10,383 nt of DNA from Actinomycetales bacterium (lineage in GTDB: Bacteria > Actinomycetota > Actinomycetes > Actinomycetales > Cellulomonadaceae), in contig JAATES010000085.1 of the NCBI GenBank assembly GCA_015655615.1, positions 1 through 10,383 of the forward strand, given 5' to 3'. The position numbers and the translations under genes are program-made. How positions within the stretch are numbered: the first letter of the stretch is position 1; each line of letters begins with the position of its first letter. The notes beneath the pieces are model-generated. The model was not told the origin of the DNA and searched no databases. It saw only the letters and a list, made by a program, of their open reading frames with translations. This document shows, one piece after another, positions 1-8,330 of this stretch.

Positions 1-1549
1 CGAGCTTGGAGATGTCGAGCACCCCTGTGATGACCGGGTTGAAGCTCTTGTCGACCCCGCTGATGTTCTTCTGGAAGACCGCAGTTCCCTTGGCGGCCGC
101 TACCGAGTACCAGTACCCGGAACTGGAGACCTTCTCCGCGATCTCGCCGTACAGAGCGTCGTCTCCGGTGCTCAGAGCCTTGTTCAGCAAATCCTCCACC
201 CCCTCGACCTCGGCTCCGAAGAGGTCGAGTCCGCCCGACGGGGTGTAGAACACCCTTGCCCATGCATCGGGCGCAGCCGTGTCGGGGAACCCGGTGAAGA
301 AGGTGATGTCCGGGGCACCGTCCTCTTCCAGAGCCGAGTAGTACGTGCCCTGGGCGTAGCCGACGCTCGTGGCCTTGATGCCTGCTGAGTTGAGGACTGC
401 GGCGAGGTTGTCCGACAGCGCCTGGGCAGCCGGGCTCACCGAGGCATAGCCGATTGTGAGGCTCTTGCCCCTGAGTTCCCCGGAGGCCAGCGTTGCCAGG
501 GCACCGACCTGATAGGTGATCGCCTGCTGGTTGAGATCCTCGGGGATCAGACTGTGCGGAAAGAGCTCGGTGGTCGGCGACGCGGTGTCGCCCAGGGCCT
601 TGGTCGCCAGGTCGGTGAAGTCGATCCCGGACACGAACGAGACCCGGGTCTTATCGCCGCCAAGGGTCGCGCTCTTGGGGTTGATGAACATCGTCGGAGT
701 CTGCATGGAATCGAAGGCATAGGTGGCCAGGGTGTCCGAGGTCTTGTAGCTTTCGAAGCTCGTCTTGTCGGTGTACCCGATAAGACCGTCGGTCTGACCC
801 GACTCCAACTGCAGTTGTACCGTGGCCAGATTCGAGACGACTTCGAACTTGACGGTGGAGTAGGCGGGCTTGTCGCCCCAATACTCACCGTAGGCGGTGA
901 GCTCATAGGAGGTCCCGGGCGTGAACGCTCCGTAGCTGTACGGGCCCGTTCCTGCGTCATGGTCGGCGAAGTACGTCGTCCCATTGTCAGCGGAGTTCGC
1001 CTCAAGTGCCTTCGGACTGATGATCTTGGGACCGAACGGCGAGGCCAGCAGATCCAGGAAGTCGGCATTGGGAGAACCCAGGGTGATGACCACCTGGGTG
1101 TCTGTAGGCGTCTCCACCGACGCGACGTCGGCCACCATATACGCCGGGCCGCTGTCGACGGCGGTCCGGCGTGCGAACGATGGTTCGATGGCCGCCGAGG
1201 TGAACGCCGTCCCATCGTGGAACTTCACGCCCGAACGCAGAGTGAAGGTGAAGACCGTATTGTCGTCGCTGACGGTCCAATCCGTCGCGAGTGCGGGAGC
1301 GAGCGTCGGCTCCGCGTTGCCCGGTTCGTAGGTGACCAGACCCTCGTATGCGGCGTTGACCAGGTTGAGTTCGGTCCCGTCATATGCGGTGTCTGGGTCC
1401 GGAGTCGCGATGTCGCCGAGGAGCGCCAACTCGAGCGTGGAATCGACAGTACGGGAGAGTGACGTGCTCGAGCCGCCGCATGCGGACAGGGCCAGGGCGA
1501 CTCCAGCGGCGAGTGCTCCAGCACTCATTGCGCGTCGTGAGAGTGACAT
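1..1549 (-). CDS. ABC transporter substrate-binding lipoprotein, peptide/nickel (SBP_bac_5) type, 3' end cut by window edge
   Basis: Partial gene: 516 codons are readable from the ATG at 1549 without a stop, and the frame runs off the left edge. The length is close to a full family member, so only a few residues are probably missing. It would capture a solute outside the membrane and deliver it to an ABC permease. The N-terminus is a lipoprotein signal: basic MSLSRR, a hydrophobic stretch, then the lipobox LSAC with the lipidated Cys at 24. The segment around residues 100-120 reads FTFTLRSGVKFHDGTAFT, a hallmark of the DppA/OppA/NikA family. GGAAGG lies 8 nt before the start. Permease and ATPase genes would be expected just beyond the left edge. 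It has its own promoter region, with an operator-like repeat shared with the DUF1989 operon, which suggests a substrate linked to guanidine or urea-type nitrogen. The substrate cannot be read from sequence. Family assignment is firm; substrate is inference. Confidence 0.93.
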   Translation of the reverse strand, partial: MSLSRRAMSAGALAAGVALALSACGGSSTSLSRTVDSTLELALLGDIATPDPDTAYDGTELNLVNAAYEGLVTYEPGNAEPTLAPALATDWTVSDDNTVFTFTLRSGVKFHDGTAFTSAAIEPSFARRTAVDSGPAYMVADVASVETPTDTQVVITLGSPNADFLDLLASPFGPKIISPKALEANSADNGTTYFADHDAGTGPYSYGAFTPGTSYELTAYGEYWGDKPAYSTVKFEVVSNLATVQLQLESGQTDGLIGYTDKTSFESYKTSDTLATYAFDSMQTPTMFINPKSATLGGDKTRVSFVSGIDFTDLATKALGDTASPTTELFPHSLIPEDLNQQAITYQVGALATLASGELRGKSLTIGYASVSPAAQALSDNLAAVLNSAGIKATSVGYAQGTYYSALEEDGAPDITFFTGFPDTAAPDAWARVFYTPSGGLDLFGAEVEGVEDLLNKALSTGDDALYGEIAEKVSSSGYWYSVAAAKGTAVFQKNISGVDKSFNPVITGVLDISKL

Positions 1550-1587: not shown

Positions 1588-1614
1588 AACCTATCGCTCG
1601 ATAGTTACAGTCAA
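1588..1614 (-). promoter_or_regulatory. candidate promoter of the binding-protein gene
   Basis: On the minus strand TTGACT (1614-1609) resembles a -35 box and TAGGTT (1593-1588) fits the TAnnnT -10 pattern. The spacer is only 15 nt, shorter than ideal, so the call is tentative. The predicted transcript would begin near 1581, leaving a leader of about 30 nt that includes the GGAAGG ribosome site. The -10 overlaps the 18-bp inverted repeat at 1589-1606, as expected for repression. Confidence 0.4.
1589..1606. promoter_or_regulatory. operator-like inverted repeat (copy A), probable TetR site
   Basis: The plus strand reads ACCTATCG-CT-CGATAGTT, with seven of eight positions complementary between the arms. 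It lies 39 bp upstream of the binding-protein start codon, between the candidate -35 and the transcription start. A second copy (5080-5097) lies at nearly the same distance from the DUF1989 operon. Over the surrounding 22 bp the two sites share 16 identical positions. The likely binder is the TetR-family protein encoded at 5264-5872, by neighbourhood inference. Confidence 0.65.
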
Positions 1615-1639
1615 AGGCCTCGGATGTTTCGTTCCGATT

Positions 1640-1654
1640 TCAGGTGAAACCTGA
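1640..1654. repeat. short hairpin after the allophanate hydrolase stop
   Basis: TCAGGT-GAA-ACCTGA is a perfect 6-bp inverted repeat with a 3-nt loop, 9 nt beyond the allophanate hydrolase stop codon on the minus strand. It could be a weak transcript end or processing hairpin. There is no uridine tract after it, so a classical intrinsic terminator is not supported. Confidence 0.3.
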
Positions 1655-1663
1655 TATGGGCCG

Positions 1664-3346
1664 TCACTGCCCGCGGGATGCGAGCCATGCCAGCCAGCTT
1701 CCGTAGCCCGTGATGTCCTGGACCCCCTCAGTGGCGACCGACTCACAGACGAAGCCCTCGACCTGCTGCCCTCCTGCCAGTTCCACCTTTCCCATGCACA
1801 TGGGTTGCGGAAGCCCCCCGACAAAGGTTCCGAACCTAGCCTCAGGCACCCGCCACACCTCTCCGCGGATCGACTCGCCCGCGTCCGCAGCCACCCGGAG
1901 CAGGCCTGGCTTGGAAGGCCTGGCATCCAGCACGTACAGCCGATAGCAGGACGCGGTGCTCGCCTGACCCACCAGAGTGCCTCCGGCTTGCCGAAGTTCA
2001 TGGTTGAGGGGCTGGCCGCTGAGATGCGCGCCGACCACGAACACGTCGAGCGCGGTCTGAGGCACGAGTTGTGCCAGCACCATCAAGAGGTCGTCGCTGC
2101 CTGCCGGGCCGGTGAGCATCGCACCGAAGGGCAGCCCGTGGACGGTCCCGGCGGGAAAGGCGAGCGCAGCCATGTCAAGGAGATTCGCATAGTTGGTGAA
2201 CCGACCCAACTGGGAATTGACCCCCACCGGGTCTGCATCGACCTCGGCGAGAGTCGGATGCCGGGTCGTCGTCGGGGTGAGCACCGCATCGGCGTCCGCG
2301 ATGATCGGCAGCGCTGCGAGCTTGAGCAGTTCCAGCCTGTCCAGGTCGGCAAAGAGCTCGGCGGCGGTAGGCGTGCTTCCTCCCAGAACAATCGCGGCGA
2401 CGGTCGGATCGAGGTCGTCACCGATCTGATCCTGATGGGCGCGGATATGCTCTCCCACTGCGGCATACCGTTCCGCCACGAAGGCTCCGCCGTAGAGCAG
2501 TGCGGCTGCATCGAGGAGCGGCCTGATGCTGCGCTCCACCACCTCGACACCCGCTGAGGCGAACGCCGCGATCGTGTCCTGGAAAGCCTCCGCCCACCCG
2601 GCGGCGAGGTCACCGAGTTCCGCTGGTGGCGGCACCACGACGCGATATCGCGCGGCAGGCGCCACAGGAATACCCCGCGACGCGAGCGGATCCACTCCGT
2701 CGGGCCCGAACATGGTGCGCACCGCCTGGTTCGCGAGAATCGGATCCACACTGAACACCGTGACGCAATCGAGTGACCGGCAGGCCGGCACGACGCCCGA
2801 GGCCGGGATCCTGCCGCGCGTGGGCTTGACGCCCCAGATTCCATTGAGTGCCGCTGGCACCCTTCCGGAACCCGCGGTGTCGGTCCCGAGGGCGAAGTCC
2901 ACCAAGCCCAGGGCCACGGCGACCGATGAACCTGAGCTGGATCCTCCCGAGATCCGACCACGGTCCCAGGCGTTGCGCACTGCCCCGAACGGGCTCCGGG
3001 TGCCGACAAGGCCGGTCGCGAACTGGTCGAGGTTGGTCTTGCCCACCACGAGTGCGCCCTGTGCCCGCAGTCGAGCGACCGCGGTCGAGTCCTTCTCCGG
3101 CAGGTAGGCGTAACTCCGGGAACCCGCCGTGGTGACAAGTCCGCCGACGTCGATATTGTCCTTGACCGCGACCAGCCGCCCAGCCAACGGCAACCTCGCT
3201 CCTTGCGCCACCGCCCGGTCGATCTCCTGGGCCTCCCGGAGCAGGTCGGCCTCGTCGCGAAGGCTCGTCCAGATCTCCGGCCGGCCCGATTCCCTGGCTA
3301 GGCGGCAGAAGACAACCGCTCGTTCCTCAGCACTACGACTCCGCAT
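1664..3346 (-). CDS. atzF: allophanate hydrolase (amidase-signature family, with C-terminal decarboxylase domain)
   Basis: 560 aa, cytosolic. It hydrolyses allophanate to ammonia and CO2, the last step of carboxylase-dependent urea or guanidine breakdown. The N-terminal amidase domain (about 1-430) has the full Lys-cisSer-Ser triad: K62 in AVKDNID, S136 in SGGSSSGSS, and nucleophile S160 in DTAGSGR. The spacings match the AtzF triad as I recall it (K91/S165/S189). The last 130 residues (VVGAHLSGQPLNHE, YRLYVLD, KPGLLRV, GEVWRVP, FGTFVGGLPQP, DITGYGSWLAWL) are the C-terminal domain typical of true allophanate hydrolases; it processes the N-carboxycarbamate product and is absent from ordinary amidases. 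The frame opens further upstream to 3451, but the ATG at 3346 is chosen because AGGAGG lies 7 nt before it. It follows the DUF1989 genes by 117 bp, probably in one transcript. The symbol is by family resemblance; 'ah' or a DUR1-type name would serve equally well. Confidence 0.93.
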   Translation of the reverse strand: MRSRSAEERAVVFCRLARESGRPEIWTSLRDEADLLREAQEIDRAVAQGARLPLAGRLVAVKDNIDVGGLVTTAGSRSYAYLPEKDSTAVARLRAQGALVVGKTNLDQFATGLVGTRSPFGAVRNAWDRGRISGGSSSGSSVAVALGLVDFALGTDTAGSGRVPAALNGIWGVKPTRGRIPASGVVPACRSLDCVTVFSVDPILANQAVRTMFGPDGVDPLASRGIPVAPAARYRVVVPPPAELGDLAAGWAEAFQDTIAAFASAGVEVVERSIRPLLDAAALLYGGAFVAERYAAVGEHIRAHQDQIGDDLDPTVAAIVLGGSTPTAAELFADLDRLELLKLAALPIIADADAVLTPTTTRHPTLAEVDADPVGVNSQLGRFTNYANLLDMAALAFPAGTVHGLPFGAMLTGPAGSDDLLMVLAQLVPQTALDVFVVGAHLSGQPLNHELRQAGGTLVGQASTASCYRLYVLDARPSKPGLLRVAADAGESIRGEVWRVPEARFGTFVGGLPQPMCMGKVELAGGQQVEGFVCESVATEGVQDITGYGSWLAWLASRGQ

Positions 3347-3428
3347 GGTGGGTCCTCCTACGTCGTGATCGTCATCAGCACGCGCCCCGACGGCACTCGC
3401 TGGGATTCCGTGGCCTCCGCAGGGCGGA

Positions 3429-3444
3429 CGGTTCCGGCGAACCG
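3429..3444. repeat. intercistronic hairpin between DUF1989 gene and allophanate hydrolase
   Basis: CGGTTC-CGGC-GAACCG is a perfect 6-bp inverted repeat with a 4-nt loop in the 117-nt gap between the second DUF1989 gene and the allophanate hydrolase start. The rest of the gap holds only the AGGAGG ribosome site near 3353-3359; no promoter was recognised. With no T-run it may stabilise or process the message rather than end it. Confidence 0.3.
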
Positions 3445-3463
3445 ACCCCACCGGGTGCGTGGC

Positions 3464-4189
3464 TCAGCCGGCGATCGCCGGTGCAGTAGGAACCGGGTGA
3501 CCGAGGGACGCCGGGTCGTCCGGGGTGACCACAATCACCCTTAACGGAGTCGGATTGAAGTCGTTGCACGGGTTGTTGATCTGCGGGCAGTTCGACACGA
3601 GCACCAGCACGTCCATCTCAGCGCGCAACGCCACCCGCTTGCCAGGGCCGGAGATGCCGTCCACGATGCCAAGCGTTCCATCGTCCTCGACGGGGACGTT
3701 CATAAACCAGTTGAGATTGGAGACCAGGTCCCGAGCGCCCATGCCGTATTTGGAAGCCTCGTAGAGGAAGTTCTCGCGGCACGCATGGTGGAAGTAGGTG
3801 TGATACCCGTAACGCAGTGTATTCGACTCCTTCGAGCACGCCCCGCCGATGGTGTCCTGGCGGGCGACCTCGTTGCCGACCACCGTCATCAGGGCCCGGG
3901 CCTCGTTGGAGCGCAGCACGGTGCCAGTGTGGACGTAGGCGTTGCCCTGCCAGGCGAGGGTGTCCGGAACGCTGTAGCGCTCGCGGGTGTCCGCTGCATT
4001 GAAGACCAGGCAATCACCAGACTGGTTGCCGCCCACATCCACCAAGGTGAGCACTTGGCCAGCGCGCACTATCCCGGACCACGGCGCGCGCGCGGGCACG
4101 ACCTCGTCCAGGACCGTGGCACCCTCGACCAGGGTGCGCGCATAGTCGAAATAGTCGGCCTCATTGGTGGCCCAGGTCGCGGTGGTCAT
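3464..4189 (-). CDS. DUF1989 protein, UAAP2-type (putative carboxyguanidine deiminase subunit)
   Basis: 241 aa, soluble. It belongs to the 'urea amidolyase associated protein' family (DUF1989). Such pairs were re-assigned as carboxyguanidine deiminases (CgdA/CgdB), which release ammonia from carboxyguanidine to give allophanate. Diagnostic stretches are PARAPWSGIVRAGQVL (32-47), the IGGACSKESN block (114-123), NLNWFMNVPVE (158-168), IVDGISGPG, LRAEMDVLVLVSNCPQ (188-203) and NNPCN (205-209), typical of the second member of the pair. The segment 110-112 reads RQD where the upstream paralogue has RHD. The start is set by the TGATG junction: its A is the last base of the upstream TGA and the first base of this ATG. 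GAAGGG precedes it, implying translational coupling and probably a heteromer. The frame opens further upstream to 4261, but that is rejected because it would overlap the neighbour by 73 bases. Which of CgdA or CgdB it is, I cannot say. Confidence 0.88.
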   Translation of the reverse strand: MTTATWATNEADYFDYARTLVEGATVLDEVVPARAPWSGIVRAGQVLTLVDVGGNQSGDCLVFNAADTRERYSVPDTLAWQGNAYVHTGTVLRSNEARALMTVVGNEVARQDTIGGACSKESNTLRYGYHTYFHHACRENFLYEASKYGMGARDLVSNLNWFMNVPVEDDGTLGIVDGISGPGKRVALRAEMDVLVLVSNCPQINNPCNDFNPTPLRVIVVTPDDPASLGHPVPTAPAIAG

Positions 4190-5043
4190 CAGTATCCCTT
4201 CGATGCGAGGTAGTCGGCAGTATTGAGATAGGCGCGATGGCATTCCGGAGTGGTGTTCCACCAGGGGTCCGACTCAGAGGTCGGCGACGACTGCCAGGCG
4301 TGAACCCGCAATGGGCCCACGGTGTAACGCTCGCGCGGATCCAGCGGGTGCGGGACGTTGGCGATCAGCAGGATCAGGTCCATCTCGGCGACCAGTTCCA
4401 CATAGGTGTCGGAGCCGGCCGATCCAGTGAACTCCAGTGCTCCGTCGTGCGCCACCCGTACCCCCTGGAAGAACGAGATGCTGGGAGGCAGGTCACGCCG
4501 TTCGAGTCCGTGCTTGGTCGCTGCCAAGGCGAACAGCTCGCGTCCCGCCGGTGTCGGGTTCTGCGGGTCGTGACCGCCGTAACGGGCGTCGTTCGACAGC
4601 GCAGTGGAGGTCCCGCAGAAGGCGTCGTGACGCATCGACGTGTCCGAGACGATGGTGGCCAGCACCCGACCGTCACCGGAGAGCAGGGGGTGACCCTCCC
4701 CCAGGTATGCCTGCCAGGGGATCTTCTGGGTGTCGGCCACGTTGAGGCGCTCGTGTGGCTCCGCCGCATTGAAAACCAGCAGATGCGCACAGGCGTCACC
4801 AGTCGGGTCCGTCAGCCTGACTCTAGTGCCCCGGGCCAGCCTGCGATGGGTGTACGAGCCACCCGAGACCGCCTCCGCCCACACCGCCGAGCGGGGGTCC
4901 ACTGAATCCGGAGGAAGAGGAGCGGACGATGCCGGCACGTAGGGCATCGCCTCCGCGGTCAGGCCCTCACGGGCACGCGCGTCTTCCCTTGCTGCCACGA
5001 CGGTCGCTGTGTCGCGCGTTCCTTCGGTCACCTCGAACACCAT
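4189..5043 (-). CDS. DUF1989 protein, UAAP1-type (putative carboxyguanidine deiminase subunit)
   Basis: 284 aa, soluble; first gene of the operon and a diverged paralogue of the gene downstream. The shared core runs from LARGTRVRLTDPTGDAC (69-85) through LLVFNAAEPHERLNVADT, SDTSMRHDAFCGTST (133-147), RRDLPPSISFFQGV (182-195) and LVAEMDLILLIANVPHPLD (217-235). The PHPLD ending and the C-terminal PECHRAYLNTADY tail are characteristic of the first member of the pair. RHD (138-140) and C143 are candidate metal or active-site residues by family conservation; I have not verified this structurally. The first 50 residues are poorly conserved. The ATG at 5043 is favoured over upstream starts (frame open to 5301) because GGAGA lies 9 nt before it and upstream starts would run through the operator and into the divergent TetR gene. 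Family is sure; the guanidine role rests on published work on homologues, and the partner carboxylase is not in view. Confidence 0.88.
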   Translation of the reverse strand: MVFEVTEGTRDTATVVAAREDARAREGLTAEAMPYVPASSAPLPPDSVDPRSAVWAEAVSGGSYTHRRLARGTRVRLTDPTGDACAHLLVFNAAEPHERLNVADTQKIPWQAYLGEGHPLLSGDGRVLATIVSDTSMRHDAFCGTSTALSNDARYGGHDPQNPTPAGRELFALAATKHGLERRDLPPSISFFQGVRVAHDGALEFTGSAGSDTYVELVAEMDLILLIANVPHPLDPRERYTVGPLRVHAWQSSPTSESDPWWNTTPECHRAYLNTADYLASKGY

Positions 5044-5079
5044 CCTCAACGTTCTCCGACGAGTGGTACGCCTCTGGAT

Positions 5080-5097
5080 ACCTTTCAAGCGATAGGT
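5080..5097. promoter_or_regulatory. operator-like inverted repeat (copy B), probable TetR site
   Basis: The plus strand reads ACCTTTCA-AG-CGATAGGT. The right half is the ideal half-site CGATAGGT; the left half departs from its complement at two positions. It lies 36 bp upstream of the first DUF1989 start codon, in the region shared with the divergent TetR gene, so one site could control both directions. No convincing -35/-10 pair was found beside it; TAGACT (minus strand, 5112-5107) is a weak -35 candidate. It matches copy A at 1589-1606. Confidence 0.65.
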
Positions 5098-5263
5098 ACA
5101 ATGGAAGTCTAGGGAGACGCTGATTTCCGCCGTGTTACAGCCAGGGAAACTGTGAGGAGACCGCCGCCCAACGGCCTCCGAGACGGCCTGTCCGCTCCTG
5201 TATCGTCGGAGATTGCCCGTCACGACGGAAGATCTCCATTGCCGCATCACTGAAGGAGCGCCC

Positions 5264-5872
5264 ATGTCGACGACCCCTCGCGCCGCACGTCCTCGCGGCA
5301 AGGAGGCTGTCGGTCGTGAGCGGATCCTCGAGGCCGCAGCCGAGCTCTTCGTTCAGAGTGGTTACGCAGCGACCTCGACCAGGGAGATCGCGAAGAAGGT
5401 CAACATCCAGCAGCCGTCGCTCTATTACCACTTCAAGGTCAAGTCCGACATGCTTGCCGAACTCCTGCTGCGAACCGCCACTCCCTCCGTTGAGCATGCC
5501 GAGCGCCTCGCTGCGCAGGGCAGCCGCCTGGACCCCCTGGAACGCCTCACTGCATTGATCGGGTTCGACGTCCGGCTGCTCTGCGCCGGACGCTGGAATC
5601 TCGGCTCGCTCTATCTCCTACCCGAGGTGGGCGGCGACGAGTTCGCCGAATTCCGGACAGCTCGCCAGAGCCTGAAGGACTTCTATGCGCGCTTCGTCGC
5701 GGAAGCCGATGACGCGCATATGGTCCGGGTGACCGATTCGGCCCGCATGGCCGCCATGGTGTTCAGCCTCGTCGAAGGCGTGATCCTGCGACGCGCCGAC
5801 CACCCCGATCTCGATCCTGAGACCACAGCCGACGAGACCTGCCGAGCGGCGTTAAGGGTGCTCGGGGCCTGA
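5264..5872 (+). CDS. TetR/AcrR-family transcriptional regulator
   Basis: 202 aa. The N-terminal DNA-binding domain (about 16-64) is textbook TetR: RERILEAAAELFVQSGYAATS, helix-turn-helix TREIAKKVNIQQPSLYYHF (39-57), then KVKSDMLAELL. The remaining helical region (about 70-200) is the variable ligand-binding and dimerisation domain; it gives no clue to the ligand. The ATG at 5264 is preferred over one at 5213 because GAAGGAG sits 6 nt upstream and the TetR fold starts normally. TATCGT at 5201-5206 could be its -10 box, but no good -35 was found. It is divergent from the DUF1989/allophanate hydrolase operon, with inverted repeats upstream of that operon and of the transporter gene. Inference: a local repressor relieved by guanidine, a guanidine-containing nutrient or a related metabolite. 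Confidence 0.92.
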   Translation: MSTTPRAARPRGKEAVGRERILEAAAELFVQSGYAATSTREIAKKVNIQQPSLYYHFKVKSDMLAELLLRTATPSVEHAERLAAQGSRLDPLERLTALIGFDVRLLCAGRWNLGSLYLLPEVGGDEFAEFRTARQSLKDFYARFVAEADDAHMVRVTDSARMAAMVFSLVEGVILRRADHPDLDPETTADETCRAALRVLGA

Positions 5873-5922: not shown

Positions 5923-5948
5923 CTTCGCATGCGCGAAGATACTAAGGC
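5913..5948. promoter_or_regulatory. perfect 16-bp inverted repeat over the arsR start codon, probable operator
   Basis: The left arm GCCTTAGTATCTTCGC (5913-5928) and right arm GCGAAGATACTAAGGC (5933-5948) are exact reverse complements around the 4-nt centre ATGC. It covers the -10 box, the predicted transcription start, the ATG and the first six codons or so. The length and AT-rich core resemble ArsR/SmtB operators. A bound dimer would block polymerase, so autorepression relieved by metal is the simplest reading. Confidence 0.75.
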
Positions 5949-6323
5949 TCCGGTCGTATCCGTCACGAGCGACTACATCGAGCTCGCGGCCGAGGTGTTC
6001 TCCCTGCTGTCCGACGCCACCCGGATCAGGCTGATCCTGGCGCTCCGGCAAGGGGAATCGGCCGTCGGCGACTTGGCCGAACTCGTGGGCAAGCCCCCCG
6101 CGGTGGTGTCCCAGCATCTCGCCAAGCTGCGCTGGGCCAAGGTCGTCCAGGCCCGCCAGGAAGGCAACCGCGTCTACTACAGCCTCATCGACGAGCATGC
6201 GCGCGAGCTTGTCGACCAGGCAGTCTTCCAGGCCGAACACGTCGTGGACGCCGTCCCCCGCCACCATCGCCTGTCGGAACGCCCCCTGCCAGGCGAGCCT
6301 GCCAGATCCGCCGAGGCCAGGGC

Positions 6324-6327
<4 letters not shown>
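5929..6327 (+). CDS. ArsR/SmtB-family metal-responsive repressor (NmtR/KmtR-like)
   Basis: 132 aa winged-helix repressor, presumably sensing a divalent metal and controlling the ATPase gene. Visible features are LLSDATRIRLILAL (26-39), AVGDLAELVGKPPAVVSQHLAKLRWAKVV split by the recognition helix (about 56-68), and the wing RQEGNRVYYSL (76-86). Helix alpha5 carries D88-E-H90 and H104, matching three of four ligands of the SmtB/NmtR alpha5 site (Asp-x-His, then His/Glu 13 and 16 residues after the Asp). Position 101 is Gln where His is usual. There are no Cys, so thiol-based arsenic, cadmium or lead sensing is unlikely. H112-H113 in the tail could add ligands, as C-terminal His do in NmtR. The ATG at 5929 lacks an SD but lies six nt after a -10 box, so it is read as leaderless. 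The gene ends in an ATGA overlap with the ATPase. Metal identity (Zn, Ni, Co) is not resolvable. Confidence 0.9.

Positions 6328-8330
<2,003 letters not shown>

Follow-up and report, generated by a model that had tools for sequence, protein, structure and literature searches.

Predicted AmtR-type operators upstream of an ABC importer and of a DUF1989/allophanate hydrolase operon on an actinobacterial contig

Two copies of one operator-like palindrome were identified in the window, by which the whole analyzed stretch of DNA is meant (one entire contig, C179, of 10,383 bases). Probably both are bound by the AmtR-type regulator encoded in the window, which would in this way control an ABC importer as well as the UAAP1-UAAP2-allophanate hydrolase operon; the binding is predicted from sequence.

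In the proposed mechanism, the AmtR-type TetR repressor (5264-5872) would bind both operators and hold down the divergent UAAP1-UAAP2-allophanate hydrolase operon as well as the adjacent ABC-importer unit, whose first gene encodes the family-5 binding protein. Probably it would also repress the gene by which it is encoded itself. Upon nitrogen shortage, or upon build-up of the imported compound or its product, the repressor would leave. The importer would take up a guanidino or ureido compound rich in nitrogen, with the hydrolysis of allophanate to ammonia as the last step of the pathway. Binding and repression, the effector and the transported compound are what we infer from the features described below.

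Genes and operator-like sites of the window

The sites, the genes, the family of the regulator and the conservation of the sites and of their spacing were read from the sequences themselves. The following features were found in the window:

2..1549, minus strand: family-5 solute-binding protein of an ABC transporter (PF00496), truncated at the contig end and below the NikA cut-off
1589..1606, no strand assigned: operator 1, predicted AmtR-type box 39 bp upstream of the start codon of the binding protein, in the interval that separates this gene from that of allophanate hydrolase
1664..3346, minus strand: allophanate hydrolase (TIGR02713, 618 bits, cut-off 511) with C-terminal AH_C domain (PF21986)
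3464..4189, minus strand: UAAP2 (DUF1989; TIGR03424, 317 bits, cut-off 285; PF09347)
4189..5043, minus strand: UAAP1 (DUF1989; TIGR03425, 303 bits, cut-off 206; PF09347), first gene of the operon
5075..5102, plus strand: TGGATA-N16-TACAAT, resembling a promoter of the regulator gene at 9/12 positions and spanning operator 2 (1 found, 0.1 expected; weak)
5080..5097, no strand assigned: operator 2, predicted AmtR-type box 36 bp upstream of UAAP1, with the divergent regulator gene (start 5264) at a distance of 166 bp
5264..5872, plus strand: AmtR-type TetR-family regulator of 202 aa (PF00440), divergent from UAAP1; nearest solved protein AmtR 5e57 (E 2.4e-34)
5929-8330: genes for an ArsR-family regulator and, after it, a heavy-metal P-type ATPase, located where Demequina has the carboxylase

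The order of transcription on the minus strand is UAAP1, UAAP2, allophanate hydrolase and family-5 binding protein. The UAAP1/UAAP2 pair is presumably formed by the subunits of carboxyguanidine deiminase, CgdAB; a search of solved structures gave no relative of UAAP1. UAAP1, UAAP2 (both DUF1989) and allophanate hydrolase are all encoded near amtR, as expected for a cluster of the AmtR/urea-carboxylase system. A nickel importer of the NikA type was rejected for the binding protein, which reached 123 bits with TIGR02294 (cut-off 393).

The ideal palindrome ACCTATCG-NN-CGATAGGT is matched at 1589-1606 and 5080-5097 with 1 and 2 mismatches, respectively (of 16 positions). When up to 3 mismatches were allowed, these were the only matches in the whole window (chance mean 0.04), and two sites were obtained in 0 of 200 shuffles; the two copies claimed in the preliminary description of this DNA were borne out in this way. 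Since the pattern was derived from the two sites themselves, the published AmtR core was used as an independent pattern. The AmtR box of C. glutamicum is given as tttCTATN6AtAGat/aA, with the spacing of the half-sites being crucial, in the available text of the study (PMC2723105). With at most 1 mismatch, the core CTAT-N6-ATAG was found at the same two places and at no others in the window (chance mean 0.34), being exact at 1591-1604 and having one change at 5082-5095. Two or more matches occurred in 5 of 200 shuffles. The statistics within the window are modest, that is, suggestive and not decisive, and the conservation in relatives appears to be the stronger support for the sites.

Measured from the start codons at positions 1549 and 5043, operators 1 and 2 lie 39 and 36 bp away, as had been described before. 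The two copies agree at the claimed 16 of 22 positions only when one of them is taken as its reverse complement; read in the same direction, they agree at 15 of 22. Promoter scans gave one match per operator region, both on the plus strand and both weak.

The assembly to which the window belongs is 81.35% complete, with 406 contigs and 3.38% contamination. In this genome the core CTATCGNNCGATAG was found once exactly (the site at 1591) and once with one mismatch (C349:4141). The second site, which an ORF for a luciferase-like monooxygenase follows at a distance of 136 bp, was taken as chance. With up to 2 mismatches, CTATCGNNCGATAG was found at 20 places of the own genome, which is fewer than the 36 places of the reversed control, and a wide regulon in this genome was rejected because the site count was not above the control. 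Random occurrence across the genome, which had been named as speaking against the motif, was not seen for near-perfect copies, either in the own genome or in Demequina, where the control gave 0.

No TIGR02712 match above the cut-off, and with it no carboxylase, was found in the 81.35%-complete own assembly or in the window. For the isochorismatase-like hydrolases described below, a search of the own genome with one relative's protein gave a single distant match (E 1e-5). Neither UAAP1 (E ≤1e-20) nor the binding protein (E ≤1e-100) was found in three genomes of the same genus, and the neighbouring FAD-linked oxidase is at most 47% identical within the genus, while a different genus of the family has one of 65% identity. 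Due to these absences and identities, the contig may be laterally transferred or mis-binned, which would leave the reading of the locus itself unchanged.

The regulator and the conservation of its predicted box

The TetR gene said to be divergent to one copy is present on the plus strand, and its product is AmtR-like. The best six matches of the protein among solved chains had E values of 2.4e-34 to 1.3e-28, and three of them are named AmtR. The remaining three, named only 'TetR family transcriptional regulator', we take to be AmtR of C. glutamicum. The next solved protein after these six was Mce3R (E 4.4e-11). The 5e57 sequence is that of M. smegmatis AmtR listed as P0110, over the visible parts of both.

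Nine DNA-contact residues were compared with C. glutamicum AmtR. Thr42 and the five residues of strong effect (Gln53, Ser55, Tyr57, Tyr58 and His59) are kept in the regulator of the window and correspond to T39, Q50, S52, Y54, Y55 and H56. His43, Arg52 and Ala54 are changed, at positions with no or moderate effect in AmtR. By these comparisons the regulator belongs with the AmtR group. The sites had also been considered as a TetR palindrome outside any known family, which was abandoned after the regulator was grouped with AmtR.

In an alignment of 43 relatives, Asp102 and Glu171 of the regulator were invariant and Glu121 was nearly so. The chains taken to be C. glutamicum AmtR have a Glu at position 102 and an Ile at position 121. 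As a guess, Asp102, Glu171 and Glu121 might be contacts for a ligand of the guanidinium type.

For the analysis of the regulator side, loci were fetched with an AmtR alignment, and the best 80 of at least 580 relatives, all of them named loci, were kept. The 69 loci with UAAP1 divergent within 3.5 kb were counted and the other 11 were left out. Within 450 bp upstream of the regulator, the motif CTRTC-N4-GAYAG was identified with at least 9 of 10 positions in 60 of these 69 loci and perfectly (10/10) in 47 of them (from the best 80 of at least 580), compared to 1.0 and 0.0, respectively, in dinucleotide shuffles. A motif not conserved at orthologous operons, which the preliminary description had listed as counting against the reading, was accordingly not what these loci showed on the DUF1989 side. 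Other spacings between N0 and N10 were found in 0 to 2 of 69 loci, except for N8 (17) as well as N0 and N10 (8 each); most of the N8 matches listed are the N4 site read with its flanks.

The nine loci without the motif comprise seven of Amycolatopsis, one of Mycobacterium and one of Nocardioides. At the expected place, the Amycolatopsis loci (L044, L046, L050, L052, L053, L056 and L074) have a variant palindrome, CGATCG-NN-YGACCG. A Pro in the recognition helix goes along with a CTTTC half-site in 4 of 4 proteins with this Pro; nothing was drawn from this link, as three of the four are Demequina proteins and the fourth is that of the window.

It could be argued that the operators are real and are read by another DNA-binding protein, since binding by the regulator is deduced from its sequence and a search of the own genome gave four further TetR-like matches. 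These matches are weak: the best has an E value of 9.4e-9 and 28% identity, the identity is at most 39% throughout, and three of them cover the DNA-binding part only. Moreover, the box recurs beside an AmtR-type regulator in the 60 of 69 loci (from the best 80 of at least 580), which were fetched through the regulator. Another reader of the sites is improbable on these grounds, and the AmtR-type regulator is retained as the predicted one.

On the transporter side, a search for the binding protein (E ≤1e-100) in 221 genomes of the family and 396 of the order gave 24 relatives besides the window. One of them ends at a contig edge upstream and was left out, resulting in 23 testable relatives. Sites were scored over 12 core positions, with A or G accepted at the third. 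A site with 11 or 12 of 12 positions was found upstream of the binding protein in 13 of the 23, namely a member of the family with 81% completeness (G222), all 4 relatives of the Kineosporia type and all 8 of the Demequina type. The other 10 (7 Cellulomonas-type and 3 Kineococcus-type) were at shuffle level.

Among the named loci, two Microbacteriaceae MAGs have sites of 10/12 and 11/12 upstream of the binding protein, and a Frankiales homologue of the binding protein with 34% identity has only 7/12. In the Cellulomonas-type loci L151, L153 and L156, which are at shuffle level by score, CCGGTC or CCGATC followed by ACCGACAGG lies upstream of the binding-protein gene; this is possibly a diverged box.

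The likeness of the two sites could in principle be due to chance, or the DUF1989-side site could be the only functional one. The shuffles with two or more core matches and the own-genome count below the reversed control at up to 2 mismatches are consistent with this, yet position, spacing and sequence are conserved in relatives on both sides, which makes such a reading very improbable. Points that run against the AmtR model are the 10 of 23 transporter relatives and the 9 of 69 regulator loci (from the best 80 of at least 580) in which no good site was found. The two mismatches of the second site, the low score of the Frankiales homologue, the one-mismatch counts of two Kineosporia-type genomes, the carboxylase not found in the incomplete own assembly and the nitrogen control of M. 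smegmatis, which persists in the absence of AmtR and depends on GlnR, also count against it.

Taken as one TetR operator whose two copies join the importer and the DUF1989/allophanate hydrolase operon, the preliminary reading is supported by the AmtR-like regulator, the published box and its presence in 60 of 69 loci (from the best 80 of at least 580). As to the local regulon of import and catabolism proposed with it, Demequina, Kineosporia and a further genome retain the transporter copy, though the Cellulomonas- and Kineococcus-type loci do not. Beyond this, the regulator could be placed with AmtR, and relatives add a carboxylase, a permease or an amidohydrolase under the box.

Further genes predicted to be under the box in relatives

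Gene names in relatives are backed by a family scan or are otherwise marked as resemblance. At three Demequina loci, a 12/12 site directly precedes the carboxylase, at distances of 9, 9 and 39 bp from its called start. The three carboxylase genes are convergent with the regulator, and all are above the TIGR02712 cut-off. A further carboxylase match, in a Frankiales MAG (L144), contains one internal TGA.

Genome-wide, the three Demequina genomes have 6, 5 and 4 sites with at most one mismatch, and the reversed control gave 0. Of these sites, 4 of 6, 4 of 5 and 3 of 4 fall within one stretch of about 18, 18 and 8 kb, respectively. In two Kineosporia-type genomes, 1 and 2 one-mismatch sites were found versus 3 and 2 in the reversed control; since these counts are not above the control, the transporter site alone is noteworthy in these two genomes.

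An 11/12 site precedes an amidohydrolase gene (PF01979, scanned in one) in two of the three Demequina genomes (L197:5399 and L198:4108); no such site was among the one-mismatch sites of the third. The solved relatives of this amidohydrolase include arginine carboxypeptidases. Both Microbacteriaceae MAGs have a 10/12 site before a permease-like ORF, which in L042 scored 683 with the model of the urea-carboxylase-system permease, below the cut-off of 740.

Downstream of the binding protein, G222 encodes two isochorismatase-like hydrolases in addition to an ABC ATPase and a pair of permeases. An isochorismatase-like hydrolase also follows in the Kineosporia-type L177 and in Demequina L197, and similar hydrolase N-termini were seen in L051, L173 and L178. 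In L174 (7545-8790) and its relatives, two isochorismatase-like hydrolases stand after the ABC importer genes, and the nearest solved relatives include N-carbamoylsarcosine amidase-related proteins and biuret hydrolase. Guanylurea hydrolase is a member of the isochorismatase-like hydrolase family according to the available text of PMC9800807, so a larger guanidino or ureido compound is a natural guess for the substrate of the importer.

The signal and the comparison with known systems

The same operators and the same regulator could respond to the general nitrogen status, by PII release or by action under GlnR, instead of a guanidino metabolite; this is a serious possibility, although we do not consider it the probable case. 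The own genome encodes one PII, and a competitive AmtR/GlnR mechanism is reportedly named in the title of a 2016 paper. AmtR of C. glutamicum is released by PII (PMC4617892). For M. smegmatis, the available part of the study describes AmtR targets that need GlnR for their nitrogen response, with nitrogen control intact without AmtR and lost without GlnR, and a binding of AmtR that was unaffected by urea or amino acids at 0.5-5 mM (PMC4222082). On the other hand, PII of M. smegmatis reportedly does not regulate the response to nitrogen, and the effectors named as assayed in that part of the study (PMC4222082) include neither guanidine nor carboxyguanidine. Moreover, the box described here would govern a small local gene set and not ammonium assimilation.

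For the reading in which the imported compound or its product releases the repressor, the type of the linked carboxylases is of interest. An Asp was found in 66 of 67 motif-bearing loci (80 scanned, the best 80 of at least 580), the exception being one Kitasatospora, in the column aligned to Asn1330 of the K. lactis urea amidolyase. Presumably, this column is the substrate-distinguishing position meant by a review of these enzymes; on that assignment, the carboxylases linked to the AmtR loci of relatives are of the guanidine type. At the substrate-distinguishing position, guanidine carboxylases have an Asp and urea carboxylases an Asn, as stated in the available text of the review (PMC12186494).

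Control by a guanidine riboswitch was rejected, since no Rfam family matched in the window at the gathering score and the one match in the 22 of the 80 named AmtR loci that were scanned against Rfam was RNase P. Guanidine-type carboxylases in relatives together with the lack of a riboswitch in the 22 loci make the AmtR-type repressors concrete candidates for guanidine sensors. Tentatively, we suggest that the cluster-linked repressors might be protein sensors of guanidine, carboxyguanidine or allophanate, which in this clade would command an ABC importer and in relatives also accessory hydrolases for a larger guanidino or ureido compound.

Such a sensor would be the transcription-factor counterpart to the guanidine riboswitches. 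If this is true, the mycobacterial 'urea' regulon would serve guanidine assimilation and this group of ABC importers would gain a likely substrate class. The layout of the locus makes sensing of guanidine or its product by the repressor testable. In the open-licence literature, AmtR and guanidine were found together only in insect papers, by title. An ABC importer under an AmtR box, the split units of Demequina and a reading as guanidine rather than urea were not met in that literature.

The locus shares the regulator group and the CTAT-N6-ATAG core with the global nitrogen regulon of AmtR in C. glutamicum (PMC2723105). This regulon comprises at least 35 genes compared to the small local set found here, and AmtR of C. 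glutamicum is not autoregulated (PMC2723105, in the parts available), whereas the box in the window lies within the promoter region of the divergent regulator gene.

In the guanidine carboxylase operons of proteobacteria, an ABC importer is likewise controlled together with guanidine carboxylase, carboxyguanidine deaminase and allophanate hydrolase. There, the control is exerted by guanidine riboswitches (PMC12186494), which were found neither in the window nor in the 22 AmtR loci scanned.

The closest system is the actinobacterial AmtR/urea-carboxylase regulon, which combines AmtR and an amino acid permease with urf1, urf2, a carboxylase and an amidase and was described for ten genomes (Jessberger et al., 2013; PMC4222082). 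In M. smegmatis, AmtR binds upstream of msmeg_2184 and represses the homologous cluster, amtR is autoregulated, and loss of amtR raised the transcript levels of msmeg_2184, msmeg_2187 and msmeg_2189, of which the study displays data for the first alone (PMC4222082). Judging from loci of the same genera, we infer that urf1 and urf2 are DUF1989 proteins; on this assignment, the window shares an AmtR-type regulator, the DUF1989 pair and allophanate hydrolase with this regulon. The carboxylase, which is part of that cluster, is absent from the window and was not found in the 81%-complete assembly. The first importer gene under the box encodes an Opp/Nik-like ABC binding protein in the window compared to a permease in the known regulon (PMC4222082, as far as available), and in Demequina, unlike in the known cluster, the regulon is divided into units with separate operators. 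Regulator group, box and enzyme cluster are already known together as the AmtR/"urea carboxylase" regulon (PMC4222082), of which the locus represents an expanded version.
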